From Nitrospirae bacterium MYbinv3 (GTDB taxonomy: Bacteria; Nitrospirota; Thermodesulfovibrionia; Thermodesulfovibrionales; Magnetobacteriaceae): a stretch of 34,465 bases of DNA. Below the pieces are notes generated by a model, which worked only from the letters and a program-made list of their open reading frames with translations, was not told the DNA's origin and searched no databases. A program made the position numbers and the translations under genes. The stretch is taken from positions 1-34,465 of the forward strand of contig PEAB01000036.1 of NCBI GenBank assembly GCA_002753395.1, in the 5' to 3' direction. Each line of letters begins with the position of its first letter. Within the stretch, counting starts at the first letter, position 1. Positions 3,315-22,208 of the stretch are shown here, in pieces.

Positions 3315-4131
3315 ATTATTTTACACTAACACACTAATAATCATATGTCAATAGATAAAATAATACAGTAATAAAATATTTATGTACTATAAATATTAGT
3401 GTATTATATATAGTATAACTACCTATTATATAAAGAGTAACTACTATTATTAAACTTATAATATATGTCTTGCTATAATGCAACTGTCAAGATAACTTTC
3501 ATCTAAAAGCTGTATTATCGTCGTACATCACTTTTAACATAAACCTATCCATTGACTATACAATAATATTCCTACTTGTATAACGATAATATATTATGTC
3601 AATAATTAAATATGTATATTTATTAGAGTGATATAATGCGACTAAGTATAACCCTGATACAACAAAACTTAAACCTATGATTGATTAATTATCCATTTAC
3701 CTAAGGCACTTATAAGATTGAACGATGATGACCAAACACATTTTCTAAAAACCCACGAAATTCGGTAGTCCTGCAGAGGTAGTGATATTCAATCTCCCTC
3801 CCTTGGTGGAAGGAGTTAGGGGAGGGTGTTAAGTTTACTGTCACCACTACTTGTGCAGGGCTACCCAGAATCCTGTTGGCATTAAGGTGTGGACTCAGTG
3901 GGAGATCATTACTTCGGTAGTTGTATTGTATGAGTTGAAAAAGAAATTATATCAGGGTAAATTTAACGGATGTTCTGTAAGCAATAGTAATAAATGTAAG
4001 TAAAAACAAAAACATAATGGTATTTTACGGCAAAAAAGTAGACACAATAAATATGAAATAAATAAATATAATACTACCCACTATCCCTACAACGTCACTT
4101 CCAGTCTAAACGGTTGATTTCTGCGGTAACT
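3315..4131. other. AT-rich intergenic region between the replication cassette and the RT gene
   Basis: 817 bases with no supportable gene. The part from about 3315 to 3720 is extremely AT-rich. It carries short direct and inverted repeats: TATTAGTGT near 3394 is the reverse complement of ACACTAATA near 3330, and TAACTAC occurs twice near 3416-3445. Such composition next to an initiator/loader pair is compatible with a replication origin or phage control region. A 102-bp MITE-like element sits at 3764-3865. I looked for a DGR-type template repeat and found none. Confidence 0.5.
3764..3865. mobile_element. 102-bp MITE-like palindromic element, copy 1
   Basis: It starts GGTAGTCCTGCAGAGGTAGTG and ends with the inverted counterpart CACTACTTGTGCAGGGCTACC, about 21 bp each with a few mismatches. 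Inside is CCCTCCC...GGGGAGGG, a nested hairpin. A second copy of identical length lies at 30816-30917 and a half copy at 34350-34372. No clear target duplication is visible. Confidence 0.75.
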
Positions 4132-5175
4132 TCAAATAACACCAAAGCATGTAAACCGTTTATTTTGCCATGTTCTATTTCTAAACTGTCGTTGTAGGGC
4201 TATGTAACTATCTGTCTCTTTCACAATGACTACCGACGTTGTTCCGCTTTTTATGAGCTTATCCAGATATACAGACTCATAACTCATCGGAAATCCATAC
4301 TTCGTACCCCTTTTGTTATCCTTCATCCTTTTCAAACTCAAGACGTCTCTTACCTCAGGCCTCAATTCCTCATAAAATTCGTAGAAATAACCTACTTGAA
4401 ACAAGACTACCGAATGTCTGAATATACCCGTGTAATAGAGGTACTGCATCCTTGATGTCTTAAACAGACTGGCAAAGCGATATTCTGGTAATATGCAGTC
4501 ATACTCAAAAGAAAAGAACTCGTAAAGGAAACTATATCTTTCAAGTATGGCATTTCTTAAATCATAAGTATCAGCCCATTTTAGATGCCCAAAGTATGAT
4601 GCAAGCACACAACGCAGACCTTCAAGCACATCGTAAGCGTATATGAACTGCCTCATTGCCTCATCTTCTATGACAAGCCGTCTTTCATACTCATCAAGTC
4701 TAGCCATCAGGTTATTCACAACCCGCCTCCTTACAAGGGTATATCCCTGTCTGATTATGTATCCAAGGAAGTCTATTCCATTGTTTACTGGATGTACGAA
4801 ACCGTATCTTTCGTTTACAACAAGAGACAATCTGGTTTCAACAAAAGGCTTTACCTTCTCTTTTACTTCCTCAAGCCATTGTCTGGAAGTGTGGAGGATC
4901 AGAAAATCATCGCAGTACCGGACATAATATCTGCATTTAGGGACGTGCTTTGCAAACTGGTCAAGTTCATTCAGATACACGTTGGCAAAGAACTGACTCG
5001 TTAAATTACCTACCGGCAGACCTCTGTTTTCAGGGGCATGAAAGAGACTCTTATGGTGAGGCAAATGCCTCAATAGGTTACTGTCACCCTTTATCACACA
5101 GTTTGTAGTAGGATTATGATGTATTATTGTATATGCGAGATAGAGCAGGTCATTGTCCTTTACCTTTTTTTGCAA
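4132..5175 (-). CDS. Reverse transcriptase (DGR-like) truncated at the N-terminus, with MutS domain I-like C-terminal fusion
   Basis: 347 aa from a TTG at 5175. GLPVGNLTSQ (52-61) and RYYVRYCDDFLIL (YCDD at 87-90) are RT motifs, and the GLPxGNLTSQ form is typical of diversity-generating retroelement RTs. FLGY at 136-139 is the next motif. Residues about 256-320 (VVLFQVGYFYEFYEE ... GFPMSYESVYLDKLIKSG) resemble MutS domain I, the mismatch-binding domain (compare its F-x-V-G-D-F-Y-E pattern). The part before the GLP motif is only ~50 aa: the finger motifs and motif A with its first catalytic Asp are absent. Homology-like sequence extends about five codons upstream (YSLLQKK) and then meets TGA. 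It is therefore probably a broken gene, inactive as a polymerase unless complemented in trans. No TR, VR or Avd gene is seen. Confidence 0.75.
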   Translation of the reverse strand: MQKKVKDNDLLYLAYTIIHHNPTTNCVIKGDSNLLRHLPHHKSLFHAPENRGLPVGNLTSQFFANVYLNELDQFAKHVPKCRYYVRYCDDFLILHTSRQWLEEVKEKVKPFVETRLSLVVNERYGFVHPVNNGIDFLGYIIRQGYTLVRRRVVNNLMARLDEYERRLVIEDEAMRQFIYAYDVLEGLRCVLASYFGHLKWADTYDLRNAILERYSFLYEFFSFEYDCILPEYRFASLFKTSRMQYLYYTGIFRHSVVLFQVGYFYEFYEELRPEVRDVLSLKRMKDNKRGTKYGFPMSYESVYLDKLIKSGTTSVVIVKETDSYIALQRQFRNRTWQNKRFTCFGVI

Positions 5176-5292
5176 TAGACTATAAGGACATAAATTAAAT
5201 CAAGAGAAATGTATTTTTCATAAAAGGGGGTTTATGAAAATTGTATTTCACATATTGAGATCTGCATATGAGAACTTTTGGTATAAACAGAC

Positions 5293-5322
5293 TTGCTTAG
5301 CATGTCACGGTCGTGTTATTAT
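5293..5322 (+). promoter_or_regulatory. Promoter abutting the start codon of the 5329 gene
   Basis: TTGCTT (5293-5298), an 18-bp spacer and TATTAT (5317-5322). The ATG at 5329 lies six bases after the -10 box, where transcription should begin. No SD precedes the ATG. The layout matches the promoter of its paralogue at 1138. Confidence 0.5.
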
Positions 5323-5328
5323 CTAATC

Positions 5329-5793
5329 ATGAGACAAACAATAGCGCTTTTATTAGCGGCAGTGGTTATTGTTCTGGCATCCGATATGACATCAGAGGCC
5401 AGGGACGTCCCCTTTACGCAGGAAGACAGGGATAGGATTATAAGGCTCGAAGAAGGCATTAAGTCTACAAACCAGCGGATAGACGGCTTGGAATCCTCAC
5501 TAAACAAACGGATAGACGATATGAGAACCGATATGAATAATCTGAGAGCCGACATGAAAAGTATGAGGGCCGATATAACGACGCTAATGCTCTGGGGCTT
5601 TGGAGTACTCTTTGGCGGTATGTGGATTTTAATGGGGTTTGTGTTATGGGACAGACGTACAGCCCTTGCCCCTGCTATACGAAAAACCAAGGAAATAGAT
5701 GAACGTTCCGAATTGATTGTGGAAGCCCTCAAGGAAGTGGCGGCAAAAAACCCTGACGTAAAAGACGCCCTTAAACACACCGGTCTGCTGTAA
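5329..5793 (+). CDS. Small membrane/coiled-coil protein, paralogue of the 1138 gene
   Basis: 154 aa. I chose the ATG at 5329 because MRQTI matches the start of the paralogue; a TTG at 5293 would only add unrelated residues inside the promoter. Signal/anchor at 1-24 (likely cleavage near SEA-RDV), conserved TQEDRDRIIRLEEG, then a coiled coil with an extra repeat tract of R-x-D-M-x-x-L/M heptads (RTDMNNLRADMKSMRADI). Then TM helix LWGFGVLFGGMWILMGFVLW and conserved tail AAKNPDVKDALKHTGLL. The coiled coil is about 11 residues longer than in the paralogue. Function unknown. Confidence 0.75.
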   Translation: MRQTIALLLAAVVIVLASDMTSEARDVPFTQEDRDRIIRLEEGIKSTNQRIDGLESSLNKRIDDMRTDMNNLRADMKSMRADITTLMLWGFGVLFGGMWILMGFVLWDRRTALAPAIRKTKEIDERSELIVEALKEVAAKNPDVKDALKHTGLL

Positions 5794-7251: not shown

Positions 7252-7647
7252 TTATTTTGTGTTTTCCTTTTCTTTCTTTTCTGGCGGCTTAACAAAATCT
7301 ACAAATTCGATAACCGCCAACTCGGCTTGATCCTTTAGGCGTCTCCTGGTTTTAACGATTCTCAGGTATCCACCGTTTCTATCGGCAAACCTTGGCGCAA
7401 TCGTACTAAACAGCTTAGCAACTGCTTGCCGGTTTGGCAGATTTGCCAAGGCTATGCGCTTAGAGTGCAAGTCTCCACGTTTTCCTAGGGTAACCATTTT
7501 TTCGGTCATGCCTTTAATGGTTTTAGCCTTTACAAGCGTAGTCTCAATCCTCTCATATATGAGAAGGGCAGACATAAGACTTCTAAACAGCGCTTTTCGC
7601 TGGTTTGCTGTCCTATTAAACTTTCGTGTTGCGATTCGATGGTGCAT
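7252..7647 (-). CDS. rplQ: 50S ribosomal protein L17
   Basis: 131 aa from the ATG at 7647, chosen because MHHRIATRKFNRT aligns with the usual MRHRK...LNR start and GGAGGG lies five bases upstream; an upstream in-frame start at 7671 would sit inside rpoA. The core NQRKALFRSLMSALL and the C-terminal GGYLRI-KTRRRLKD motif are typical bL17. It binds 23S rRNA near the tunnel exit. The gene overlaps the 3' end of rpoA by 32 bases and closes the alpha operon. The C-terminus is Lys/Glu-rich. Confidence 0.93.
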   Translation of the reverse strand: MHHRIATRKFNRTANQRKALFRSLMSALLIYERIETTLVKAKTIKGMTEKMVTLGKRGDLHSKRIALANLPNRQAVAKLFSTIAPRFADRNGGYLRIVKTRRRLKDQAELAVIEFVDFVKPPEKKEKENTK

Positions 7648-8728
7648 TATTACCCTCCGTTTTTGTGGCAAGTTCTCTTTTTACGGCTTCCATATCCACC
7701 TTAAAGTCAAAGTCCAGACCCATTGTCTGTAATACCTCACGTATCTCGTCAAAAGATTTTCTTCCGAAATTCTTCATTTTGAGCATTTCGTCCTCATTTT
7801 TTTGAACAAGTTCGTATATATATCTAATATCAGCGCTTTTCAGGCAGTTTTGTGACCTCACGGAAAGCTCAAGCTCGTCTATAGTCTTTATCAGACTTCT
7901 ATTAAACTCTTTGCTCCCTACTGCGGGGATGGTTACCTGCGATTCTACGAGAACTGCAGGTTCAGGCTCTTGTACAACTATAAGCGCTGGGGTTTCTACT
8001 ATCTCCCTTTCTTCTATTTTTTCCTCAGTGTCAACCAGCAGGAAGAACTTCAAGTGTTTCATCAACAGTTGAGTTGCCTTAGCCACTGCTTCCTTGGGGT
8101 TTATGCTGCCGTCTGTCCAGACTTCCAGGATCAACTTGTCATAGTCAGTTGATTTCCCGACTCTTGTCTTTTCAACATTAAATATGACCTTTCTGATTGG
8201 TGTAAAAATAGCGTCTATAGCGATAGTGCCTAGTGGCATACCTGTGTTTTTTAGTTCCTCGGCTGGGACATAGCCCCTTCCCTTGCTGACATTTAATTCA
8301 GCCTTAAACTCAGCCCCATTATCGAGCGTTGCTATGTGTGCGTCTGGGTTTAAGACACTGATTAAGTGGCTACCTCCGATATCGCCAGCAGTTACGTCGT
8401 TCTTGTCTTTGACGTCTATATAAGCAGTAATCTGTTGGTCTCCATCATATGAGAGTCTGACTTTTTTGAGGTTCAATATGATTTCAACTACATCCTCTTT
8501 TACACCCTTTACAGTTGAAAACTCATGAAAAACACCATCTATCTTTATAGAGGTTATCGACGCACCCTCTATGGAGGACAGCAACACCCTTCTTAAGGCA
8601 TTGCCCAAGGTCACACCATAACCTCGTTCTAATGGTTCGGCAATAAGCTTGCAATACGTGCTTGAAAACGTCTCATCCTCGACGTACACATTTTCAGGCA
8701 ACTGAAAGCTACTTATATCAAGCAACAT
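7616..8728 (-). CDS. rpoA: RNA polymerase alpha subunit
   Basis: 370 aa, longer than the usual ~330. The N-terminal assembly domain (1-~235) contains EPLERGYGVTLGNALRRVLL and the SSIEGASIT motif. The C-terminal domain (~279-345) shows VRSQNCLKSADI and NFGRKSFDEI, the surface that contacts UP elements and activators. The extra length is mostly an extended interdomain linker (~236-276, rich in Glu, Val and Pro) and a ~25-residue tail. It lies between rpsD and rplQ in the standard alpha operon order. Confidence 0.96.
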   Translation of the reverse strand: MLLDISSFQLPENVYVEDETFSSTYCKLIAEPLERGYGVTLGNALRRVLLSSIEGASITSIKIDGVFHEFSTVKGVKEDVVEIILNLKKVRLSYDGDQQITAYIDVKDKNDVTAGDIGGSHLISVLNPDAHIATLDNGAEFKAELNVSKGRGYVPAEELKNTGMPLGTIAIDAIFTPIRKVIFNVEKTRVGKSTDYDKLILEVWTDGSINPKEAVAKATQLLMKHLKFFLLVDTEEKIEEREIVETPALIVVQEPEPAVLVESQVTIPAVGSKEFNRSLIKTIDELELSVRSQNCLKSADIRYIYELVQKNEDEMLKMKNFGRKSFDEIREVLQTMGLDFDFKVDMEAVKRELATKTEGNNAPSNRNTKV

Positions 8729-8745
8729 AAAAAGCCTCCGTTAAA

Positions 8746-9372
8746 TTATCTCGAATAAAACTCAACTATTAACTGCTCCTTCACATCGATCTGGATATCA
8801 TCTCTTGCTGGGGCGTGTAGGACTTTACCCTGCATCTGATTAACATCAATCTCCAACCATCGTGGTACCCCTGCATGACTTACCCTGGAGAGGCTCTCCT
8901 GTATGCAACCAACTGCCTTGCTTGACTCAACAACGCCGATCTTATCTCCGGCTTTTACTCTGAAAGATGGTATGTTTACCTTTACTCCATTAACGAGAAA
9001 GTGTCCATGACCTATAAGCTGCCTAGCTTGGTTCCTGTTGGCAGCTAAACCCATCTTATGAACAACATTATCCAACCTTAGTTCGAGGTACTGTAGCAGC
9101 AACTCGCCTGTAACGCCCCTTCTTCTATTTGCCTCGGCAAAGTACTTCCTGAATTGTCCTTCCATTAACCCGTAGGACCTTCTGACCTTCTGCTTTTCTT
9201 TCAACTGAATGGCGTAGTCAGACAGCTTTGCTCGTCTTTGACCGTGTTGACCGGGACCGTATTTCCTCCTTTCAATGGCACACTTATCGGTCAGACAGCG
9301 CTGCCCTTTTAGAAATAGTTTCTCCCCGTCCCGTCTGCATAACCTGCACAAAGGTTCTCTGTATCGTGCCAT
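8746..9372 (-). CDS. rpsD: 30S ribosomal protein S4, zinc-binding form
   Basis: 208 aa from ATG at 9372 (MARYREPLCRLC); twelve further in-frame codons upstream are not S4-like and overlap the end of rpsK. Cys9, Cys12, Cys26 and Cys31 form the zinc knuckle of C+ S4 proteins. KYGPGQHG and the S4 RNA-binding domain (RLDNVVHKMG..., NRNQARQLIGHGHFLVNG) follow. It is a primary 16S rRNA binder and, in many bacteria, represses the alpha operon. GGAGG lies ten bases before the start. Confidence 0.95.
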   Translation of the reverse strand: MARYREPLCRLCRRDGEKLFLKGQRCLTDKCAIERRKYGPGQHGQRRAKLSDYAIQLKEKQKVRRSYGLMEGQFRKYFAEANRRRGVTGELLLQYLELRLDNVVHKMGLAANRNQARQLIGHGHFLVNGVKVNIPSFRVKAGDKIGVVESSKAVGCIQESLSRVSHAGVPRWLEIDVNQMQGKVLHAPARDDIQIDVKEQLIVEFYSR

Positions 9373-9373
9373 A

Positions 9374-9763
9374 CTATACACGCCTCCTTTTTGGAGGTTT
9401 ACAACCATTGTGTGGTACAGGTGTTACATCCTTTATTATATTTATATCCAGACCTGCCGCCTGAATTGCCCTAATGGCAGATTCCCTTCCTGCCCCAGGT
9501 CCCTTGATGTAGACGTCTATTTGTTTCATTCCCATGTCAATTGCCTTTTTTGCTGTAGCCTCTGCAGCCATCTGTGCTGCATATGGGGTACCTTTTCTGG
9601 ACCCCTTAAAGCCGAGGCTTCCAGCACTAGACCATGCCAGTACATTGCCTGACTGGTCGCTAATGGTCACTAGTGTATTATTAAACGTTGTTTGCACGTG
9701 TGCTATACCGCTTGCTATTCTCTTTTTTTCTTTTTTTGGCCCTTTACGCTTCCTTGGCGGCAT
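9374..9763 (-). CDS. rpsK: 30S ribosomal protein S11
   Basis: 129 aa, uS11. [35 protein letters not shown] and the C-terminal [18 protein letters not shown] are diagnostic. The N-terminus is Lys/Arg-rich ([14 protein letters not shown]) and binds 16S rRNA on the platform near the E site. The start codon overlaps the rpsM stop by one base, so the two are likely coupled. Confidence 0.96.
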
Positions 9764-10158
9764 TATTTACCTCCCTTTTTCTTTACAACGGCCTCTTTTT
9801 TCTTTACAACACCTTTTGCAGGCCCTCTTCTTGTGCGGGCGTTTGTCTTTGTCCGCTGACCACGCACGGGAAGCCCTGTCTTATGCCTTAACCCTCTATA
9901 GCATCCTATATCTGTCAACCTTTTGATACTCATGGAGATCTCTTTGCGCAGATCTCCTTCGACTTTTTGTTCTTTGTCGATTATCCCTCTAATTTTAGCA
10001 ACGTCCTCGTTGCTGAGGTCATTGACGCGTATGTTTGGATTGACCTCGGCCTCAGCCAATATCTTTTTTGAAAGCGATCGTCCTATTCCAAATATACGGG
10101 TTAACCCTATCTCAACCCTCTCTTTTTTAGGTAAATCTACACCAGCTATTCTTGCCAT
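9763..10158 (-). CDS. rpsM: 30S ribosomal protein S13
   Basis: 131 aa, uS13. [20 protein letters not shown], the helix-hairpin-helix [16 protein letters not shown] and [20 protein letters not shown] are family signatures; the protein touches the P-site tRNA and bridges to L5. The C-terminal tail is extended by a Lys-rich segment ([20 protein letters not shown]), about ten residues longer than usual. It lies directly after rpmJ in the canonical order. Confidence 0.96.
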
Positions 10159-10172
10159 ATCACTCCTTTCTC

Positions 10173-10286
10173 TTAGCCCTGCCTCTGCTTGTGTTTAGGG
10201 TTGTCACAAATAACTCTGAGCACACCTTTGCGTTTAATCAACTTACACTTTGTGCAGATTGGTTTAATTGATGCGCGTACCTTCAT
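10173..10286 (-). CDS. rpmJ: 50S ribosomal protein L36
   Basis: 37 aa. The sequence begins [20 protein letters not shown] and ends HKQRQG. Cys11, Cys14, Cys27 and His32 are the zinc ligands of the C+ form of bL36. GGAGG lies five bases before the ATG. It sits between infA and rpsM as in most bacteria. Confidence 0.95.
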
Positions 10287-10352
10287 AATAATCCTCCATC
10301 TATTTTCAATTATCCTGATATTACTTTTCGTCTGTATATGCCGTTTAGCTGC

Positions 10353-10571
10353 TTACTTATATCTGTAGGTGATTCGTCCTTTTGTAAGATCATATGGAGA
10401 TAACTCTACCAACACCTTATCACCAGGTAGAATTTTTATATAGTGTATTCTCATCTTGCCAGATACATAAGCTGTTACAACCTGCATGTTATCTAACTCT
10501 ACCTTGAACATCGCATTGGGCAGGGCCTCTATTATTGTACCCTGTACCTCTATGTTTTCTTCTTTCACCAT
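10353..10571 (-). CDS. infA: Translation initiation factor IF-1
   Basis: 72 aa, exactly the usual size. A single OB fold: [27 protein letters not shown] then [36 protein letters not shown]. It occupies the 30S A site during initiation. It lies 25 bases after map and upstream of rpmJ, the common position in the spc/alpha junction. Confidence 0.96.
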
Positions 10572-10596
10572 CGTTAATCCAGTCTCTTAATTAAGT

Positions 10597-11346
10597 TTAT
10601 AGTCTTGTCAATATTTGTGGTTTATCATCTGTAACAACGATTGTATGCTCAAAGTGAGCCGATAGCATACCGTCGGCCGTTACTGCTGTCCAACCGTCTT
10701 TCATTACAACGACATCGCTTGTGCCTGCGTTGACCATAGGCTCTATTGCTAGCACCATACCTTTCCTTAACCTTGGTCCCGTGTTTGGAACCCCATAATT
10801 TGGTATCTGCGGATCCTCATGAAGAGACCTGCCCACACCGTGTCCCACAAAGGCGCGCACCACAGAATATCCATTCTTCTCCACATAACTCTGTATTGCG
10901 TGAGATATGTCTGACACCCTGTTGCTGGCTGAGGCCTTTTCTATCCCTTGATAAAGAGATGTCTCTGCAACCTCCAGTAATCTCTGTGTCTCCTCACTAA
11001 CCCTTCCTACAGGATAGGTTCTGGCGCCATCTCCTATGAAGCCCTTGTATATAACCCCTATATCTATACCGATTATATCGCCTTCCTTAAGCATCTTCTT
11101 CTTTGAAGGTATACCGTGGACTATTTCGTTATTTACAGACGCACAGAGGCTTGCCGGATACCCCCTATAACCTTTAAAAGCGGGTACCCCGTTTCTTTCC
11201 TTTATGATCTTTTCCACGTATATCTCAACATCCTTTGTTGTAATGCCAGGCGCTATCATTTGCTCAAGGAGCCTCAACGCTTCAGCTACAATCCTGGATG
11301 CCAGGGCTATCTTCTTTATCTCGTCTTCGGACTTTAAAATTATCAC
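10597..11346 (-). CDS. map: Methionine aminopeptidase, type I
   Basis: 249 aa. It removes the N-terminal Met from nascent proteins. The five metal ligands of the pita-bread fold are visible: Asp95 (IGIDIG), Asp106 (GDGART), His169 (VGHGVG), Glu202 (IEPM) and Glu233 (FEHT). Substrate His78 lies in NEIVHGIP. There is no zinc-finger extension. It follows secY directly; the usual adk between them is missing. Confidence 0.96.
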   Translation of the reverse strand: MIILKSEDEIKKIALASRIVAEALRLLEQMIAPGITTKDVEIYVEKIIKERNGVPAFKGYRGYPASLCASVNNEIVHGIPSKKKMLKEGDIIGIDIGVIYKGFIGDGARTYPVGRVSEETQRLLEVAETSLYQGIEKASASNRVSDISHAIQSYVEKNGYSVVRAFVGHGVGRSLHEDPQIPNYGVPNTGPRLRKGMVLAIEPMVNAGTSDVVVMKDGWTAVTADGMLSAHFEHTIVVTDDKPQILTRL

Positions 11347-11368
11347 TATAGCCCTTTTGTCTGAATTA

Positions 11369-12679
11369 TCAGCCTCTCCTCCCTTTAATCCTACCCTTTT
11401 TCAACAACCCGTCATAAGACCTCGTCAACAGATGTGATTCTATCTGTGACACGGTATCCAATGCAACACCTACAACTATCAACAAGGACGTACCTCCAAA
11501 ATAAAACGGTACGTTAAACTTCCTTATGAGGATGCTTGGAAGCACGCACACCACGGAGAGATATATAGCCCCAACAAACGTCAACCGCGACAACACCCTG
11601 AATATATAGTCTGAGGTATTCTTACCAGGTCTAACGCCTGGTATATATCCACCATGTTTTTTTAGATTATCTGCGATATCAACTGGATTAAACACAATAG
11701 CAGTATAAAAGTAGCAAAAAAAGACTATCATACCCACATAAAGCGCGTCGTGTACAAACGACCCAGGAGAAAGCTGCTTGGCAAAGGCTTGTACCCAGGG
11801 TATCGCTATAAACCCGGCAATCGTTGCAGGAAACATTATTATGGACGACGCAAATATCGGTGGTATAACTCCCGATGTATTGACCTTTAAAGGAAGATGC
11901 GAGCTCTGACCGCCATACATCCTTCTACCAACGACCCGTTTTGCATATTGTACTGGGATCTTCCTCTGGCCTCGTTCCATATAGATTATACCAGCTATAA
12001 CAGCTACCATCATGACTACGATTATAAACATCATAATTATGGGAAGCTCGCCTGCCCTAACGAGTCTGATCGTATCGATCGTTGCATTTGGCAGTCTTGC
12101 AACTATACCTGCAAAGATGATTAACGATATACCGTTTCCTATACCACGCTCTGTAATCTGCTCCCCCAGCCACATGATAAATGCAGTCCCTGCCGTAAGT
12201 GTGATCATGGTAATCAACCTAAAACTCCAGCCTGGATGAAGGATAAACTGTCCTTCCGCCATTGTCTCAAGCCCAACAGCTATGCCAAAGGACTGTATGG
12301 CGCTGATTAGCACCGTACCATATCTCGTGTATTGAGTGATCTTTTTCCTTCCCTCTTCTCCTTCTTTGGCGAGTTTGCCGATGGATGGCACCACTACGGT
12401 CAGCAGTTGCAGGATAATTGAGGCACTGATGTAGGGCATTATGCCAAGGGCAAATATTGTTACACGCGAGAGCGCCCCACCTGAAAACATGTCAAAGAAC
12501 CCCATTAGGGCTCCCCCTCTTTCAGTGAGGAATTTACTTAACTGCTCTCCTGCTATGCCAGGTGTGGGTATATGCGCACCAATCCTGTATACAGCCAAAA
12601 GTCCGAATGTAAAAAACATCCGTTTTTTTAGTTCTTCTATTTTAAGTATATTTTGAAAGCCTGCTAAAAATCCCAACAT
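11369..12679 (-). CDS. secY: Preprotein translocase subunit SecY
   Basis: 436 aa, ten transmembrane helices. It is the channel of the Sec translocon in the inner membrane, partnered by SecE and SecG. RIGAHIPTPGIAGEQL near the N-terminus, GIGNGISLIIFAGIVARLP, the PVQYAKRV loop and the C-terminal SHLLTRSYDGLLKKGRIKGRRG are conserved signatures. It begins six bases after rplO. Confidence 0.96.
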   Translation of the reverse strand: MLGFLAGFQNILKIEELKKRMFFTFGLLAVYRIGAHIPTPGIAGEQLSKFLTERGGALMGFFDMFSGGALSRVTIFALGIMPYISASIILQLLTVVVPSIGKLAKEGEEGRKKITQYTRYGTVLISAIQSFGIAVGLETMAEGQFILHPGWSFRLITMITLTAGTAFIMWLGEQITERGIGNGISLIIFAGIVARLPNATIDTIRLVRAGELPIIMMFIIVVMMVAVIAGIIYMERGQRKIPVQYAKRVVGRRMYGGQSSHLPLKVNTSGVIPPIFASSIIMFPATIAGFIAIPWVQAFAKQLSPGSFVHDALYVGMIVFFCYFYTAIVFNPVDIADNLKKHGGYIPGVRPGKNTSDYIFRVLSRLTFVGAIYLSVVCVLPSILIRKFNVPFYFGGTSLLIVVGVALDTVSQIESHLLTRSYDGLLKKGRIKGRRG

Positions 12680-12685
12680 GCACCT

Positions 12686-13132
12686 CTATTCTAAAACCAC
12701 TGCTTTACCCCCTGCTGTAGTTATTTTGTCCAGGGCCGTCTTACTAAACTTGTTTGCTTTTACAGTTAAAGGACCCTGCAGCTCACCATCGCCAAGTACC
12801 TTAACCCCGCATAACAGCTTTTTAATAATGCCCTTTTCAATCAACAGCTCTGGAGTTATTTCAGTTGCTCCTTCAACTCTAGCTATATCATCAAGATTGA
12901 CGATTGCGTATTGCACGCTAAAAGGATAGTTCTTAAAGCCTCTCTTGGGCAGTCTACGTTGTAGAGGCATCTGCCCGCCTTCAAACCCACGTCTTTTACC
13001 GCTACCGGCGCGTGCTTTTTGCCCCTTGTGCCCTTTGCATGCTGTCTTCCCATGCCCAGAGCCGCAGCCTCGTCCAACCCTCTTGACATTCTTGGTACTA
13101 CCATCAGCAGGCTTCAGTTCGTTTAATCTCAT
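12686..13132 (-). CDS. rplO: 50S ribosomal protein L15
   Basis: 148 aa, uL15. [20 protein letters not shown], the Gly/Arg-rich [22 protein letters not shown] and [16 protein letters not shown] are typical. The C-terminus is the globular domain with VKVLGDGEL. It ends in TAG. AGGAGG lies close upstream of the ATG. A 194-base gap separates it from rpmD, unusually long for this operon. Confidence 0.95.
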
Positions 13133-13215
13133 TTATAAACCTCCTAACACTCTTACGCAGGGGGTGTAGGACCCTTCGTTTTCTCTATTGCTGTTATTAC
13201 ACATACCTTTTTACT

Positions 13216-13278
13216 TTAGGCCTTCTTGATTTCCATTTTTACTTTTGCAAAACGTCTTTCACTTTTCGACCATGCCAT
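13216..13278 (-). CDS. Possible 20-aa basic peptide in the rpmD-rplO gap
   Basis: ATG at 13278 to TAA at 13216 encodes MAWSKSERRFAKVKMEIKKA. AGGAG lies 13 bases upstream, too far to be convincing. I know of no homologue. The 194-base space is otherwise empty and could instead hold an internal promoter or leader; I see no clear sigma70 motif in it. Confidence 0.2.
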   Translation of the reverse strand: MAWSKSERRFAKVKMEIKKA

Positions 13279-13326
13279 ATACCACAGATGCTCCTTATGA
13301 CATAACCGTAATCCCGTGAGTAGTCG

Positions 13327-13518
13327 TTATACTGCCGTTGCAGCATCTTCCTCTATGTGGACAAGATGTGATACCTTGTGGAGCATCCCACTTATCGCTT
13401 GATTCTTGGTATGCTCAACCGTCATACCTATCTTACGCAGACCTAGTGCACGGAGGATGTTTCTCATACTTTCCGTCTTCCCTGCATAACTACGCTTTAA
13501 CGTTACTTTAATCTTCAT
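13327..13518 (-). CDS. rpmD: 50S ribosomal protein L30
   Basis: 63 aa, uL30 short bacterial form. [33 protein letters not shown] is the family core (the IG-x-TVEH turn), followed by a helix that includes [11 protein letters not shown]. The start codon overlaps the rpsE stop by four bases. Confidence 0.93.
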
Positions 13519-14030
13519 TTGCTGGCCTCTTTTGAGCTGCCGCCATCATCAGATTTTCCTCTCTGCTTTAGCACCATCTCCGGGTTTTTCAACAGCGTTA
13601 AACCGTTGAGTGTTGCCCTAACCGCGTTGAAGGCATTGGTACTTCCTAATGACTTTGCTACAATATTATGCACACCAGCCACTTCCAACACTGCTCGCAC
13701 CGGACCACCTGCTATCAGACCTGTACCTTCTCTGCCTGGGTTTAAGACGACCATGCCTGAGCCATAGTGACCGATTATCCTGTGAGGAATTGTCCCGCTT
13801 TTTATAGGAAACTGGAAGAGTGATTTTTTTGCCTTCTCAATCGCCTTTTTTATAGCCTCTGGTACCTCGTTTGCCTTACCCTTGCCAATGCCAACGATAC
13901 CGTTGCCATCGCCAACAACCACGAGTGCGCTAAATGAAAAACGCCTGCCTCCCTTAACCACCTTTGCAACACGATTTATAAAAACAACCTTCTCCTGAAG
14001 TGTTAAATCAACATGTTCGATCCTTCCCAA
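13515..14030 (-). CDS. rpsE: 30S ribosomal protein S5
   Basis: 171 aa, uS5. The N-terminal double-stranded-RNA-like domain contains [20 protein letters not shown] and [20 protein letters not shown]. The C-terminal domain has [19 protein letters not shown] and [16 protein letters not shown]. It sits at the mRNA entry and the decoding site, where mutations affect fidelity. Coupled to rpmD by a four-base overlap. Confidence 0.96.
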
Positions 14031-14061
14031 CTTACCTCCTTTATCCGTATACTATTAGGTG

Positions 14062-14424
14062 CTAAAACTCTAATCCTGATTGTCTGGCAGCGTCGGCCAG
14101 CGCCTTAACTCTACCGTGGTATTTAAACCCGCCTTTATCGAAAACAACCTTGGTTATACCTTTTTCCTTGGCCTTGAGCGCTATCAACTCTCCAACTTTT
14201 TTTGCCGCAATGACATTACCTTTATGCCCACTGTCGGACTTGAGTGACTTATCGAGAGTTGAGGCGTAGGCAAGTGTTACTCCCTCAGTGTCATTTATCA
14301 ACTGGGCGTACATGTGATTGAGGCTCTTGTAGACCGATAGCCTCGGTCTTTCCAGCGTGCCTACAACTTTCTTTCTAACTCTATCGTGTCTTCTTTGCCT
14401 TAAGTAGATCTTTTCGTTCTTCAC
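14062..14424 (-). CDS. rplR: 50S ribosomal protein L18
   Basis: 120 aa, uL18, which binds 5S rRNA with L5. [25 protein letters not shown] and the C-terminal [26 protein letters not shown] are diagnostic. The Lys/Arg-rich N-terminus is expected. It ends in TAG. Confidence 0.95.
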
Positions 14425-14471
14425 TCTAAAAAATTCCTCACTTTAATCTGGTACTCACTTTAATCTGGGTT

Positions 14472-15014
14472 TTATTTTGAACCCGTTTTACCTGGTTTTA
14501 GTTTGATCTTCTCTTCTGCATACCTGATACCCTTACCTTTATATGCATCCGGCGGTCTGATAGCCCTTATGTTGGCTGCCACTTGGCCTAAGAGCTGCTT
14601 ATCTATCCCAAAAAGGGACAGCTTAGTTTGCTTCTTATCGACCTCGGCACTGACGCCCTTTGGCAGTGTAAACACCACAGGGTGTGAGTATCCTATGGCA
14701 AACTCTAACTTATCGCCATTAACAAAGGCCCTGTACCCAACGCCTGCCAGTTCTAGATCCCTTTTAAACCCTTCCGATACACCCATACACATGTTATATA
14801 TCAGACTCCTCGTTAATCCGTGCAGCGCCCGTTCTGAGCGCGTATCTCCCTGCCGCTGTACTTTTAATTGTGAGCCCTCAACTTCTACCTTCAAAACAGT
14901 TGGGCAGGACCAACTCAACTCACCCTTGCCTCCTTTTACACGTATCTCGGAGTTATTTAAGTCTACCGTTACGCCTTTAGGAAGCACTATCGGCTTTTTA
15001 CCAATTCTAGACAT
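14472..15014 (-). CDS. rplF: 50S ribosomal protein L6
   Basis: 180 aa, uL6. I chose the ATG at 15014 (MSRIGKKPIVLPKGV), the universal start, with GAGG six bases upstream; an in-frame ATG four codons earlier would overlap that SD. Two repeated alpha/beta domains; IRAIRPPDAYKGKGIRYAEE is the C-terminal signature that contacts the sarcin-ricin loop. Confidence 0.95.
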   Translation of the reverse strand: MSRIGKKPIVLPKGVTVDLNNSEIRVKGGKGELSWSCPTVLKVEVEGSQLKVQRQGDTRSERALHGLTRSLIYNMCMGVSEGFKRDLELAGVGYRAFVNGDKLEFAIGYSHPVVFTLPKGVSAEVDKKQTKLSLFGIDKQLLGQVAANIRAIRPPDAYKGKGIRYAEEKIKLKPGKTGSK

Positions 15015-15137
15015 CGCCAGCCTCACCTCTTTATCGTCTTAAAAATTTTGGTATTAATCTATTATTATGTAATTTATTGTGTGCTTTTGTGCAATGTAAT
15101 TGCAGATGTCTTGACACAACGGCACTTATCAATAATC

Positions 15138-15530
15138 TTACCAGACGTAGGCTAATACCTCACCGCCTATCTTTTCTCTTCTACAGACGTTGTCGGTAGT
15201 AATACCCTTGGGCGTTGTTAACACTACGACGCCTACCCCGCCCATCACGCTTGAAACCTCCTTGTAGCCCGTATAGACCCTACGGCCAGGTTTACTCACT
15301 CTCTTTAGACCTGTTATGATACTCTTGTTTTCAACGTACTTGAGAGAGATCCTTAATACACCCTGCTTTTTATCCTTTAGTATCTTATACGCCCTGATAA
15401 AACCTTCTTCTTTCAGCAGTTTTGCTATCTCTAACTTAATCCTTGAGGCAGGGATATCCACTTTTTCCGCCTTGATTAAGATTGCATTCCTCATCCTGGT
15501 CAACATATCCGCAATCGGATCAGTCATCAT
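15138..15530 (-). CDS. rpsH: 30S ribosomal protein S8
   Basis: 130 aa, uS8. TDPIADMLTRMRNAILIKAEKVDIPASRIK at the start and GVVVLTTPKGITTDNVCRREKIGGEVLAYVW at the end are typical (the family usually has STS..G where this has TTP..G). It binds the central domain of 16S rRNA and, in many bacteria, represses the spc operon. A 123-base gap separates it from rplF. Confidence 0.95.
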   Translation of the reverse strand: MMTDPIADMLTRMRNAILIKAEKVDIPASRIKLEIAKLLKEEGFIRAYKILKDKKQGVLRISLKYVENKSIITGLKRVSKPGRRVYTGYKEVSSVMGGVGVVVLTTPKGITTDNVCRREKIGGEVLAYVW

Positions 15531-15540
15531 AAGTTCACCT

Positions 15541-15726
15541 CTACCAGCTTGACTTGGTTACGCCAGGGACCTTACCCTGCAGCGAAAGTTTTCTGAAACA
15601 TATCCTACAGAGGTCAAATTTCCTCAAATAGCCTCTAGGTCTACCGCAAAGATGACATCTATTATAACCCCTCACCTTGAACTTTGGAGGCCTCTTGGCC
15701 TTTAATATCATGCACGTTTTAGCCAT
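15541..15726 (-). CDS. rpsN: 30S ribosomal protein S14, zinc type Z
   Basis: 61 aa, the short uS14 form. Cys24, Cys27, Cys40 and Cys43 ([22 protein letters not shown] region) bind zinc. The final [16 protein letters not shown] is the family tail. It sits between rplE and rpsH. It ends in TAG. Confidence 0.96.
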
Positions 15727-15754
15727 ATCACCTCTTCAAAAATATTTCTTATCA

Positions 15755-16300
15755 TTATGTCTCCCTGAAGGGCATGCCTAATTCCTTCAAAAGTGCCTTC
15801 CCTTCCTTATCTGTTTCTGCCGTCGTACAGATCACCACGTTTAGCCCGTGTACCATACTAACCTTGTCATAGTCTATCTCAGGGAATATATACTGTTCCC
15901 TCACGCCTACAGAATAATTGCCTCTACCGTCAAAGGACTTCCCGCTTACTCCTTTAAAGTCACGTATCCTCGGCAGCGACACACTTATAAACCTATCGAG
16001 GAACTCATACATCTTGTTGCCCCTTAACGTAACTATACAGCCAATAGGCATCCCCTTGCGCAGCTTAAAGCCTGCTATCGACTTCTTGGCCTTTGTGATT
16101 ATCGCCTTCTGGCCTGCTATCATCTCCAGTTCTTTTTGTGCGGCGTCTAGCAGCTTTATATCCTGCACCGCCTCACCAAGCCCCACATTTAATACTATCT
16201 TTTCAAGTTTGGGTACTTGCATCACGTTCTTATAGGAAAACTCCTTTTTGAGCGCTGATATAATCTCAGTCCGATACTTATCTTTAAGCCGAGGTGCCAT
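15755..16300 (-). CDS. rplE: 50S ribosomal protein L5
   Basis: 181 aa, uL5. It binds 5S rRNA and forms the bridge to S13. The N-terminal [40 protein letters not shown], the [19 protein letters not shown] loop and [13 protein letters not shown] are all diagnostic. It starts five bases after the rplX stop. Confidence 0.96.
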
Positions 16301-16305
16301 AGCTT

Positions 16306-16623
16306 CTAGTCAATTACCTCCTTACATTTCTTACACACACGCATCTTTTTCCCACTCTCAAGAAGCTGATTGCCTATGCGTGTTGGCTTACTGCACCTTG
16401 GGCAAATGAGCATCAACTTGGATATGTGCATTGGGGCTTCTTTTTCTATGATACCGCCTTGCTGATACTGTTTATTCGGTTTCATATGCTTCTTTATCAT
16501 GTTGGTATTTTCCACAATAGCGCTGTCCTTCTTGGGCATCACCTTAATGATCCTGCCCTTCTTACCCTTTTCGCTACCTGTCAGCACAACAACTGTGTCT
16601 TCTTTTTTAATACTTAATCCCAT
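16306..16623 (-). CDS. rplX: 50S ribosomal protein L24, with zinc ribbon
   Basis: 105 aa, uL24. The KOW motif is at about 8-33 ([20 protein letters not shown]). The C-terminal half carries Cys74-x2-Cys77 and Cys97-x2-Cys100, a zinc ribbon found in C+ L24 forms. It initiates 50S assembly and lies near the tunnel exit. Confidence 0.95.
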
Positions 16624-16656
16624 TACTTAGCCTCTTGTCTGAAAGATTACTTTTAC

Positions 16657-17025
16657 TTACAATACCTCAGGCGCCAGCGATATAATCTTCGCAAATTCCT
16701 TCCACCTCAGCTCTCTGGCCACAGGCCCAAAGATCCTTGTACCTATTGGCTCTCTCGCTGCATTGATGATAACCACTGCGTTCTGCTGAAAGCGGATATA
16801 TGTACCGTCAACTCTCCTGGTTTCCTTCACGGTTCTAACGACTACCGCTTTTACCACTGTGCCTTTCTTTACTGTTCCCTCTGGCAGAGCCTCTTTTACG
16901 GCAACCACTATGACATCTCCCAACCTTGCATACCGTCTCTTATAACCACCCAGCACTTTTATACACATCACCTTTTTCGCGCCGGAGTTGTCTGCCACAT
17001 CGAGAATACTTTCAACCTGTATCAC
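16657..17025 (-). CDS. rplN: 50S ribosomal protein L14
   Basis: 122 aa, uL14. [27 protein letters not shown] at the start and the [13 protein letters not shown] signature near the end are diagnostic. It forms an intersubunit bridge and is the docking site of the silencing factor RsfS. It overlaps rpsQ by 14 bases. Confidence 0.96.
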
Positions 17026-17272
17026 CCTCGTGCTCCTTTTTTATAGGATTTACTAAGACCCATCGTTTTGTCTTACTGAGCGGCCTTGACTCTTTTATCT
17101 GTACCACATCTCCAATATTGCAAAGGTTATCCTCATCGTGGACCTTTAGTTTGACAGTCTTTTTGATGGTCTTTTTATACAATGGGTGCTGATAAAGCCT
17201 TGAGACGGCCACTGTCACTGTCTTATCCATCGCGTTATTAATAACCTCTCCTGTGTAAACCTTTTTAGGCAT
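17012..17272 (-). CDS. rpsQ: 30S ribosomal protein S17
   Basis: 86 aa, uS17, an OB-fold protein binding 16S helix 7/11. [20 protein letters not shown] and [25 protein letters not shown] are typical. The last codons overlap rplN by 14 bases. A 95-base gap precedes it. Confidence 0.95.
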
Positions 17273-17367
17273 TGTCCTTCCTCATTTTATCTTTACTTTA
17301 CCTTATTAACTCTACCTTGATTAATTCTTCCTTAATTGTCTCTAAGCATTCTTTATACCGGGGGTTA

Positions 17368-17571
17368 TCATGCCCCTTGTTTCACTTTGCCTTTCTCCGT
17401 TATGATAGTTAAAACCCTGGCTATGTCCTTCTTTACAGTTTTAATCCGTTTGGGGTTTTGTATATCTCCCCTAGCAGCTTGAAAGCGGAGATTGAAGAGC
17501 TCTTTTCTCATGTCGTCTTCCTTTTGCTTCAGCTCCTCCACATTTAACTCGCGTATCTGTGCTGGTTTCAA
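17368..17571 (-). CDS. rpmC: 50S ribosomal protein L29
   Basis: 67 aa, uL29, an antiparallel helical hairpin at the tunnel exit near the SRP and trigger-factor sites. [26 protein letters not shown] and the second-helix [15 protein letters not shown] are diagnostic. Its ATG overlaps the rplP stop by four bases. Confidence 0.94.
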
Positions 17572-17981
17572 ATCACTGCCTCCTCTCTTTTAACAAACTT
17601 GGTGGCCACAGGCAGTTTGTGAGCTGCCAGCCGCAGCGCCTCTTTTGCAATCTCCTCGGTAACCCCTGAGAGTTCATACATAACCTTACCTGGTCTAACT
17701 ACAGCTACCCAGTACTCAGGATTTCCCTTACCTTTTCCCATTCTCGTCTCAGCGGGCTTTTTCGTTATCGGCTTGTCTGGAAACACGCGTATCCACAACT
17801 TACAGCCTCTCTTTGCATATCTTGTTATGGCAACTCTTGCGGACTCTATCTGTCTGCTTGAAATCCAGCCAGGCTCCATTGCCTTCAGACCATAGTCACC
17901 AAAAGAGATCTCTGCTCCCCTGATAGCTTTGCATTTCATGTTACCCTTCATGGCCTTTCTGAATTTCACTTTCTTGGGCAT
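17568..17981 (-). CDS. rplP: 50S ribosomal protein L16
   Basis: 137 aa from ATG at 17981 ([13 protein letters not shown]), the usual start; a start two codons upstream is possible. [22 protein letters not shown], the [15 protein letters not shown] loop and the [11 protein letters not shown] strand are diagnostic. It positions the A-site tRNA. Overlap with rpmC indicates coupling. Confidence 0.95.
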
Positions 17982-18047
17982 CAACATAGCTTTTTACTCC
18001 TTATGCTCGTTTTAAATCCTGCGTGCAGGGGCCGACGTCTGGCAACT

Positions 18048-18692
18048 TTACGCAGCTCCTTTTGACTCTGGTAGTACGTCGCCTTTGTATATCCAGACCT
18101 TCACGCCGATTATCCCGTATGTCGTCCTTGACTCAGCAAAGCCAAAATCTATATCTGCCCTGAAGGTATGAAGAGGTACCCTGCCTTCCTTATACCACTC
18201 TGCCCTAGCAATCTCAGCGCCGGATAAGCGTCCTGAACATGCTATCTTAACACCCTGTGCACCAAACCTTAACGATGACAGTACTGACTTCTTCATTGCC
18301 CTTCTGTATGCCACACGTTTTTCTATCTGCATCGCTATATTCTCGGCTACCAGTTGTGCATCCAACTCAGGTTTTCTTATCTCCTTGATGTCTATGCTCA
18401 CCGGCTTGCCAATTACCAGCTCTATCGCTTTCTTGAGATTTTCTACCTCTGCGCCTTTCTTGCCTATTATGATACCGGGTCTGGCCGTAAAGATTATGAT
18501 CTTTAGCTTTTGCCCTGCCCTCTCGATCTCGACCCTGCTGATCCCTGAATGGTACAGCTTATCTTTGATATATTTCTTTAAATAAAGATCTTCATGCAAT
18601 TGTTTTGCATAACCTACTTTCAAATACCAACGGGAATCCCAAGTCTTGTTAATTCCCAGTCTTAAGCCCGTTGGATGTGTCTTCTGACCCAA
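18048..18692 (-). CDS. rpsC: 30S ribosomal protein S3
   Basis: 214 aa, uS3. [20 protein letters not shown], a type II KH domain with GKKG at its centre ([18 protein letters not shown]), and the C-terminal [18 protein letters not shown] motif. It lines the mRNA entry tunnel and contributes helicase activity. Twelve bases separate it from rplV. Confidence 0.96.
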
Positions 18693-18704
18693 ATATCACC
18701 TCCG

Positions 18705-19034
18705 TTAATCCGACAAGACCAATGTTATATGGCTTGTTCGTTTCCTTATTACGTTTGCCCTACCCATTGCCCTAGGCATTATGCGCTTCATCGTTGGTCC
18801 TTGATTAACGTACGCAAAGGCTATGTTCATCTCATCGGGGTCTGCAACGTTCTTCTTCTCTGCGTTGGCCATTGCTGACCTTAAGAGTTTTGACACCATA
18901 TCTGCTCCCCTGTAGGGCATAAACTGTAGCAGGACAACTGCATCCTTTGCCTTCTTCCCTCTGATTAAGTCAGTCACCCTTCTAGCTTTACGAGGCGTAA
19001 TCCGAGCATATCTCAATATCGCTTTTGCGTCCAT
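18705..19034 (-). CDS. rplV: 50S ribosomal protein L22
   Basis: 109 aa, uL22. AKAILRYARITPRKARRVTDLIRGK begins it. The beta-hairpin that lines the exit tunnel is in YVNQGPTMKRIMPRAMGRANVIRKRTSHI. This loop is the site of macrolide-resistance changes in other bacteria. Confidence 0.96.
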   Translation of the reverse strand: MDAKAILRYARITPRKARRVTDLIRGKKAKDAVVLLQFMPYRGADMVSKLLRSAMANAEKKNVADPDEMNIAFAYVNQGPTMKRIMPRAMGRANVIRKRTSHITLVLSD

Positions 19035-19049
19035 TTTTTTCTTCCCTCT

Positions 19050-19334
19050 TTATTTTCCTTTTCCAGAGGATTTATCGCTACCGGCGTGCCCTCTAAACGT
19101 ACGAGTAGGCGAAAACTCCCCTAGCTTGTGTCCTATCATATTTTCTGTTACATACACAGGAATAAATTTATGCCCGTTGTGAACAGCAAACGTAAATCCT
19201 ATGAAATCAGGAACTATAGTCGATCTCCTCGACCACGTCTTAATAATCTTCTTATCTCCTGCGGCTAGCTGTTTGTCCACTTTCTCTTTGAGACACTCAT
19301 CTACAAACGGGCCTTTCTTTATCGATCTAGGCAT
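19050..19334 (-). CDS. rpsS: 30S ribosomal protein S19
   Basis: 94 aa, uS19. [41 protein letters not shown] and the [17 protein letters not shown] signature are diagnostic. It forms a complex with S13 in the head and contacts the A-site finger. Confidence 0.96.
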
Positions 19335-19346
19335 ATCTTAACTCCC

Positions 19347-20165
19347 TTATTTTCTTTTCTTAACTATATACTTATCGGTTCTTTTGTTGCTTCTGGTCTT
19401 AACGCCTTCTGGCTTACCCCACGGTGAACACGGCGGCCTTCCTCCGGAGCTCCTGCCCTCGCCTCCGCCAAGCGGATGATCTATCGGGTTCATGACGACC
19501 CCTCTGACGTGTGGTTTTTTGCCCTTCCAACGATTTCTCCCTGCCTTACCAATTGATACATTCTCATGTTCAGAGTTACTGACCTGCCCTATTGTGGCCA
19601 TACACACTATCGGTATCAGCCGCACGGCACCGGAGGTCAACTTCACCTGCGCATACTTTGGATCCTTGGCTATTAACTGCGCCTGTGCACCAGCGCTGCG
19701 GACTAGCTTTCCGCCTTGTCCTGGGCGCAGCTCTACGTTATGTATTATAGTACCCAACGGAATCTCTCTCAACGGAAGCGCATTACCAACCTTTATCTCC
19801 GACCCTGAACCGTTTGTCACCTGCTCGTTTACCCTTAGTCCCTCTGGCGCTATTATGTAGCTCCTCTGCCCATCAATGTACCTAATTAGCGCTATCCTGC
19901 AAGACCTGTTTGGGTCATACTCTAAAGACTCGACCTTTGCCGGCACCCCAGCCTTTAATCTCTTAAAGTCGATAATCCTGTAGCTTCTCTTAACTCCTCC
20001 CCCCTTTTGCCAAGAGGTTACCCTACCCTGATTATTCCTTCCCCCACTCTTCCTTAGACCAACAACTAACGGCTTATACGGTTCTTCCGCAGTTATGTTG
20101 GCAAAGTCCGATACGGTCTGAAACCGCCTGCCCGGCGACGTTGGCTTATAGCGTCTTATTCCCAT
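19347..20165 (-). CDS. rplB: 50S ribosomal protein L2
   Basis: 272 aa, uL2. [20 protein letters not shown] near the N-terminus, and the conserved [20 protein letters not shown] loop with the His involved in peptidyl-transferase centre structure. The start codon and the rplW stop share one base. Confidence 0.97.
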
Positions 20166-20455
20166 TATACACCTTCAATAAAGTCTAATTTCTCGCCCTC
20201 TTTAAGGGTTATTATTGCCTTTTTCAGCTTCCTCGTCTTACCGATTGACTTCCCATACTTCTTCCACTTGGAAGGTCTCATCGTAATAGCTACCTTCTCC
20301 ACCTTAACTTTGAACTTTTCTTCAAAGGCCTTCCTGATCTCGATCTTGTTTGACTTAGGATCTACTTCTATGTAAAACTTGTTTTCATGCTCTTTTAAGT
20401 AAGTTGCTTTCTCTGTAAAAAGCGGCCTCTTGATCGCTGTGTGAAGGTTATTCAT
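20165..20455 (-). CDS. rplW: 50S ribosomal protein L23
   Basis: 96 aa, uL23, the main docking site for trigger factor and SRP at the tunnel exit. [49 protein letters not shown] is the family core. It overlaps rplD by eight bases. Confidence 0.95.
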
Positions 20456-21140
20456 TATTAGCTCCCCGTATGAACGACAACGAATCCTTCGTCATAAGGA
20501 CGTAGTCGTGTGCAATAATCTCATATGTATTTATATCCGTAACACTTACAGCTCTAACCCCCACTATATTCCTGACAGACAACACTATCCTTCTATTATT
20601 ATCTGACATTGCAGTGCTGCTGATAACACCCACAGCAACACTCCCTGTACTGTCTTTACGCTCTACAGGTAAAACGATCAAAACGCGCTGTCCATTTAAA
20701 CCCAGCTTATTCAGTATCTCCAAAATGCTTTTCGTCCTCGTCTTATCCAACTCTATTGCATCTATAATGACAAGTTTTTGTTCGGCGACCTTTGCCGAAA
20801 GAGCCGTATTTAGCGCCAGCCTCTTAAACTGCTTATTCAGCTTATAGGAGTAGTCACGCGGCTGTGGTCCAAATATGGTTCCTCCGCCCTTCCACAAAGG
20901 CGATCTAATGCTGCCATGCCTTGCCCTGCCAGTGTGCTTCTGCTTCCAAGGTTTGCGCCCTCCACCCCTAACCAGACCTCTGGTCTTGGTAGCGTGTGTA
21001 CCCTGCCTCTGGTTGGCCAGGTAGTTTACAACAGCGCTCTGCAAGATATCACGTCTCACTTCAAGACCAAATATCTCCTTTGCCAGTTGTACCTTATCAA
21101 CTATATTGTTATTAACATCTCTGATCTCAGCCTCTATCAT
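20448..21140 (-). CDS. rplD: 50S ribosomal protein L4
   Basis: 230 aa, uL4. The tunnel-lining extended loop lies at ~45-100 (RQGTHATKTRGLVRGGGRKPWKQKHTGRARHGSIRSPLWKGGGTIFGPQPR region), followed by the globular Rossmann-like domain. In many bacteria L4 represses the S10 operon. The protein is a little longer than usual (~205). Confidence 0.95.
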   Translation of the reverse strand: MIEAEIRDVNNNIVDKVQLAKEIFGLEVRRDILQSAVVNYLANQRQGTHATKTRGLVRGGGRKPWKQKHTGRARHGSIRSPLWKGGGTIFGPQPRDYSYKLNKQFKRLALNTALSAKVAEQKLVIIDAIELDKTRTKSILEILNKLGLNGQRVLIVLPVERKDSTGSVAVGVISSTAMSDNNRRIVLSVRNIVGVRAVSVTDINTYEIIAHDYVLMTKDSLSFIRGANNE

Positions 21141-21168
21141 AACCTTACCCTATCATAAATTTAAATAC

Positions 21169-21783: not shown

Positions 21784-21898
21784 GCCTAGCTCCCATTATA
21801 ACTCATATTGATCTTAGCCTTCTCTCCACTGTCGTGTTTAATCCAAACTTCCACCACAGACTCTCTACATCCCACAGATATATACATTCACAACAGCG

Positions 21899-22204
21899 CT
21901 ATAGCTTAATCTCTACATCCACGCCAGCTGCAAGTTCCAACTGCATCAGGGCGTCAACCGTTTGCTGCGTAGGGTCGTGTATGTCTATTAATCTCTTATG
22001 AGTTCTTATCTCAAACTGCTCTCTTGATTTCTTGTCCACGTGTGGAGATCTCAAAACCGTGAACTTTTGTATATGTGTAGGTAGTGGCACTGGCCCTGCT
22101 ATCCTTGCACCTGTTCGATGAACGGTATCCACTATCTCTTTCACAGACTGGTCAAGAAGTCTGTGGTCGTAGGCCTTTAACTTTATGCGTATTTTTTCGT
22201 TCAA
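21899..22204 (-). CDS. rpsJ: 30S ribosomal protein S10 / transcription antitermination factor NusE
   Basis: 101 aa, uS10. [56 protein letters not shown] and [15 protein letters not shown] are diagnostic. It is also NusE in NusB/NusG antitermination. It begins four bases after the tuf stop, so it is transcribed with tuf. A 115-base gap follows before rplC. Confidence 0.96.
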
Positions 22205-22208
22205 AACA

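Follow-up and report, generated by a model that had tools for sequence, protein, structure and literature searches.

The 34,465-nt stretch of DNA analyzed (hereafter the window; contig PEAB01000036.1 of Nitrospirae bacterium MYbinv3, GCA_002753395.1) contains what is probably the recently broken reverse transcriptase (RT) of a diversity-generating retroelement (DGR) of the RT-MSL type, and a working mode of the intact system is proposed below. The identity of the window gene as a DGR RT carrying a MutS domain I (MSL) tail is close to certain. Binding of the tail to heteroduplex is a tentative proposal, to which we give somewhat less than even weight. DGRs must install heavily mismatched cDNA despite genomic mismatch repair, and a mutagenic RT with an intact-looking mismatch-reading domain offers a direct way into that question.

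The RT-MSL gene remnant

The ORF extends on the minus strand from a TTG at 5175 to a stop at 4132, and codes for 347 residues. The features of the region are the following.

4200-5185, minus strand: RT-MSL gene remnant (DGR RT plus C-terminal MutS domain I), of which 984 bp match the sister species' intact gene at 88% DNA identity
4993-5022, minus strand: GLPVGNLTSQ (SQ motif, as is typical for a DGR RT), from the sequence
4906-4917, minus strand: YCDD catalytic motif, from the sequence; DD invariant in 23 homologues
4756-5097, minus strand: RT palm remnant (RVT_1 profile 95-204, Pfam E 2.4e-7; best solved relative 8ub7)
4537-4728, minus strand: helices of the thumb, lying between the palm and the tail, counterparts of helices 298-361 in the full-length model
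4207-4443, minus strand: MutS domain I (MSL) tail, final strands gone (Pfam MutS_I; family profile, Foldseek and VIA matches to MutS/MSH6/MSH3)
4378-4386, minus strand: Phe-Tyr-Glu, corresponding to the Phe-x-Glu mismatch-reading motif of MutS (family alignment to MutS FYE)
4085-4199, no strand assigned: 115-bp MITE with terminal inverted repeats CCCTACAACG/CGTTGTAGGG and ATAG flanks, splitting the gene end (repeat copies, boundaries)
5183-5793, plus strand: repeated unit with a paralogous coiled-coil membrane gene (ORF 5293-5793); the RT is broken on its 5' side at the edge of this unit

FLGY is found in the ORF besides GLPVGNLTSQ and YCDD, and the window LPVGNLTSQ conforms to (I/V/L)GxxxSQ, the form of the SQ motif given for the DGR RTs (PMC3521204). 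The closest solved protein by sequence is the Bordetella phage DGR RT 8ub7 (E 2.1e-18), which is also the best fold match of the full-length RT-MSL model. The original prediction of a DGR-type RT, based on the three motifs, is therefore borne out. Two Pfam families score over cut-off in the ORF, MutS_I (PF01624) with E 1.9e-6 and RVT_1 with E 2.4e-7, the latter limited to positions 95-204 of a 205-position profile. The alignment with the intact sister-species gene spans window positions 5185-4202 (88% DNA identity), so that RT homology begins some three codons before the TTG. Both the DNA comparison and the span of the RVT_1 match indicate that the window RT lacks the half bearing motif A and the fingers, as had been anticipated.

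Over the window fragment the dN/dS relative to the sister species is 0.12, with no stops in 323 codons; for the tail alone the value is 0.21, and the window tail is under purifying constraint. The predicted MutS domain I tail stands on both the MutS_I match and the family profile described below, except for its end: the last 24 residues of the ORF (324-347) are read from a dispersed 115-bp repeat and are not MutS-like. The neighborhood of the gene is chromosomal rather than phage, genes for a ribosomal protein, secY, rpoA and elongation factor Tu being found at 7616-23408.

Fold and conserved residues of the tail

A profile made from 22 tails matches, in the PDB, solely MutS, MSH6 and MSH3 (best E 5.8e-12, Thermus MutS). 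The structural comparison with MutS domain I proposed together with the original prediction gave a concordant result. The AlphaFold model of the tail (pLDDT 92) matches MutS in Foldseek, and aligns to MutS in VIA-align with a Z of 12.1 (103 residues, 2.8 A), the next unrelated fold scoring 3.6. The profile E value, the gap in Z (12 vs. 3.6) and a dN/dS of 0.12 without stops exclude a chance match to MutS.

In the full-length model (pLDDT 89) the RT is followed by a three-helix thumb, and the thumb by the tail, which is modeled as a MutS domain I placed after an ordinary thumb. A tail taking the place of the thumb is ruled out by the same model. Thumb and tail had been set as alternatives in the original prediction, an ordinary thumb in place of the tail speaking against it; intact homologues keep the thumb, and the MutS domain comes after it. 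The clamp and ATPase domains of MutS were not found in intact homologues.

MutS inserts Phe-x-Glu at a mispaired base, the role of the motif being the contact with the mismatch. At the corresponding position, kept across phyla, an aromatic residue is found in 22 of 23 homologues and Glu in 20 of 23; V-G and aromatic-x-Glu are among the best-conserved positions of the tail.

Intact RT-MSL loci

The genome hosting the window is from the same genus as 'Candidatus Magnetobacterium casense' (Nitrospirota), a species carrying two intact RT-MSL copies (89% and 69% identity). The existence of intact homologues, raised as a possibility at the outset, extends to Magnetomicrobium, Pseudomonadota, Thermodesulfobacteriota, Acidobacteriota, Planctomycetota, and a record labeled Deltaproteobacteria. 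MutS_I matches at E 0.05 or better were obtained for 20/23 homologues, and no families other than RVT_1 and MutS_I recur among those found in the intact ones. The NCBIfam models of group II intron RTs, retrons and DRTs all scored far below their cut-offs (group_II_RT_mat gave 115.5 vs. 300 bits with an intact homologue).

Intact loci are complete DGRs, ordered as target, Avd, template repeat (TR), RT-MSL, and often feature a second target downstream. Avd is located upstream in 22/23 loci, and MSL as a substitute for Avd is accordingly ruled out. Pairs of TR and variable repeat (VR) were found in 20/23 loci, with one to three VRs per TR; the conserved RT start follows the TR at a distance of about 110-410 bp. 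The adenine-specific differences that the original prediction recommended looking for are evident in these 20 loci: 497 of 1,116 A sites are changed in VRs relative to TRs, vs. 14 other changes. Targets are Lcl_C/DUF1566 proteins in 15 of 16 cases tested.

Clear RT-MSL tails were detected in 7 of the 296 Nitrospirota genomes sampled. One of the seven (G123, locus L157) is a 137-aa MSL located just past the RT end in another reading frame, and may result from a frameshift. Clear stand-alone MSL genes were not found in the 296 genomes, nor were MSL tails found in phages, as searched in IMG/VR contigs and GenBank phages. Tail-less relatives are mostly from viral contigs and Omnitrophota. A tree of RT cores, with weak deep branches and several long rows, requires four tail changes and fits one gain and three losses. 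Variation was observed in Gallionella (L131, 4407-5576), where a single ORF includes a VR and an Avd-like domain, and the RT tail lacks Phe-x-Glu. Elsewhere (L162, G131 contig 88, 101-629) a fragment of MSL tail adjoins a short array of direct repeats, the repeat reading RRNDDLMKKGLR.

Decay of the window copy

The window gene is cut at both ends, and is a relic of a DGR RT. At the 5' side, similarity of the repeated unit to C66 (87%) and to its other copies stops at 5183, and RT homology starts at 5185; the unit recurs elsewhere at 90% or less. The predicted cut beside the paralogous membrane gene corresponds to this junction; the cut is not single, as a MITE sits at the other end. MITE copies, mostly 97-100% identical, occupy about 25 sites across the genome, with inverted repeats of 10 bp and target duplications that are mostly 4-bp ATAN. 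The element splits the gene: SYI is in the window, and GRIKERLPVRRIETKAD plus the stop lie next to the duplicated ATAG in the terminal part of contig C83. C83 features a terminal MITE, then GRIKERLPVRRIETKAD and the stop, then a downstream target like that of the sister species. Because C83 carries the rest of the tail beyond the MITE, the last codons of the gene are interrupted by the element. Below the MITE, the window sequence reflects a rearrangement or else a mis-join. The DnaC-like gene lies beyond the MITE join, at which the window departs from the way the gene would naturally continue, and intact loci have a downstream target gene; the suggested link to a replication cassette is hence rejected as unsupported.

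No Avd is present in the window, and no close match to Avd in the genome assembly; no TR match was found in window or genome apart from the VRs in Lcl_C genes, and the RT 5' half was found nowhere in the assembly, which is made up of 175 contigs and is 97% complete. No VR adjoins the RT fragment. Eleven orphan VRs of the genome fit the TR of the sister species, from which they differ at 204/458 A sites (45%) and at 85/1,035 other sites (8%), the non-A differences including species divergence. Orphan VRs in this genome thus outlast RT, Avd and TR. The low dN/dS of both fragment (0.12) and tail (0.21) suggests that the loss is recent.

Part of the breakage could stem from assembly error, given the 175 contigs and the 97% completeness. 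That the whole breakage is an artefact, the organism having an intact RT-MSL DGR and the contig being mis-joined at repeats, is an unlikely reading. The roughly 25-fold repetition of the MITE, the end of C83 in a MITE with the missing gene end, the unnatural continuation below 4085, and VRs that appear recently diversified are in line with it. Yet the unit abutting the RT at the 5183-5185 break has a closest copy of only 87% identity, a poor lure for mis-joining, and the absence of Avd, TR and RT 5' half throughout a 97%-complete assembly also argues against an artefact. So does a third Magnetobacterium species (G002 contig 29, L184, 2344-4643), which kept Avd, TR and flanking VR targets, has no RT between the TR and the next target, and has many VRs elsewhere in the genome. 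True breakage is the preferred reading. MITE-associated DGR decay of a like kind is described in Thiohalocapsa (PMC10907252). The genus Magnetobacterium offers a view of DGR decay in progress, many orphan VRs remaining after RT loss in G002.

Proposed role of the tail

In the intact system, RT and Avd would copy TR RNA, misincorporating opposite adenines, and the cDNA would replace the VR in one or more DUF1566/Lcl_C proteins. The tail would bind a mismatched duplex, which may be the cDNA-TR hybrid as it exits the thumb or the heteroduplex that cDNA and VR form in the target; on the latter, it could hold or mask the duplex until the changes are fixed. Pairing of cDNA with exposed single-stranded target was inferred in PMC12875486, and such pairing would produce a mismatched heteroduplex. 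As Phe-x-Glu is retained, the tail most likely binds mismatched duplex, and what it reads is most likely the duplex made by the mutagenic RT itself. The fuller picture, of a MutS domain borrowed by the RT to bind mispairs of its own making, possibly warding off host mismatch repair, is put forward with reserve, as less likely than not. Glu is missing in three homologues and the aromatic residue in one, so mismatch reading is not universal. A domain I alone, lacking the clamp and the dimer of MutS, may be a poor DNA binder.

The fraction of A sites changed is 48% in tail-less relatives and 45% in loci with the tail. The similarity indicates that the tail is not needed for mutagenesis and probably does not determine the mutation rate; an MSL raising the extent of mutagenesis finds no support in these figures. 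The spectrum differs: A to G/T/C changes number 207/203/70 with the tail and 162/94/14 without (p 2e-6; L102-L149), a comparison confounded by target, selection and ancestry. This difference, together with the location of the tail directly after the thumb in the full-length model, would suit a tail gripping the mispaired cDNA-TR RNA hybrid and helping the RT to extend past adenine errors. We consider such a role in cDNA synthesis quite improbable, since the overall fraction of changed A sites is alike in the two sets, the spectrum may reflect targets, selection and relatedness, and MutS domain I is known to act on DNA duplexes.

The tail might alternatively occupy the cDNA-VR heteroduplex and block repair by the host MutS, preserving the new changes. 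The host genome does encode its own full-length MutS, and a tail keeping Phe-x-Glu in the absence of clamp and ATPase domains could bind without triggering repair; moreover, mutS was deleted in PMC12875486 to preserve DGR substitutions. In the same study an 18-nt insertion reporter was unaffected by MutS. MSL is absent from most DGRs, VR diversification is similar in tail-less relatives, and a lone domain I may compete too weakly, all of which make this shielding rather unlikely.

It is also rather doubtful that the tail is a structural module, holding RNA or DNA for assembly with Avd and template RNA, with Phe-x-Glu a reflection of the fold. The domain is kept in members that lost Glu or the aromatic residue, and TR/VR pairs persist in lineages without the tail, as expected for such a module. 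Against it, the top-conserved positions include aromatic-x-Glu, the mismatch-contact motif of MutS. Binding of mismatched duplex is the preferred reading.

Comparison with known systems

PMC10053308, citing Wu et al. (2018; doi 10.1093/nar/gkx1150), names both HRDC and MSL as established accessories of DGRs, and gives MSL as PF01624. The association of MutS_I with a DGR, found both in the window gene and in the intact homologues, is already on record as MSL and is not new; the undescribed class of RT system originally envisaged is rejected on this account. Literature searches for RT-MutS fusions in DGRs, which did not reach Wu et al. (2018), gave nothing beyond the MSL accessory record. The MSL DGRs of Wu et al., as reported in PMC10053308, share with the present loci MutS_I with a DGR RT and the cassette of target, Avd, TR and RT. 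The window copy differs from them in being broken and in lacking TR, Avd and a neighboring VR. In the intact cases described here MSL is fused to the RT; in PMC10053308 it is named among accessory proteins.

HRDC-type DGRs (Treponema denticola, PMC4891356; also contig C78 of the window genome) similarly combine a DGR RT with a protein having an extra DNA-metabolism domain. HRDC is encoded by a separate gene and is a RecQ-type domain, whereas MSL is joined to the RT. The DGR in C78 (L039, 1190-4865) is a second, intact-looking one with its own TR/VR pair, and includes a trypsin plus FGE-sulfatase target with the VR, the HRDC gene, Avd, the RT, and the TR after the RT; TR and VR feature 16 A differences and no others in 80 bp. 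A third RT in the same genome (contig C53, L002, 1144-2349) matches PADLOC RT_UG19 (DRT) with E 3.8e-123.

The DGR of Bordetella phage BPP-1 (RT 8ub7) resembles RT-MSL loci in RT fold, SQ motif, Avd-TR-RT order, and adenine-specific TR/VR differences. Its 328-residue RT lacks a MutS tail, and its target is a phage tail fibre, while RT-MSL targets are chromosomal DUF1566/Lcl_C proteins. With domain I of MutS, MSH6 and MSH3, the RT-MSL tail shares fold and Phe-x-Glu; it differs from those proteins in lacking connector, lever, clamp and ATPase domains, and in being joined to an RT.
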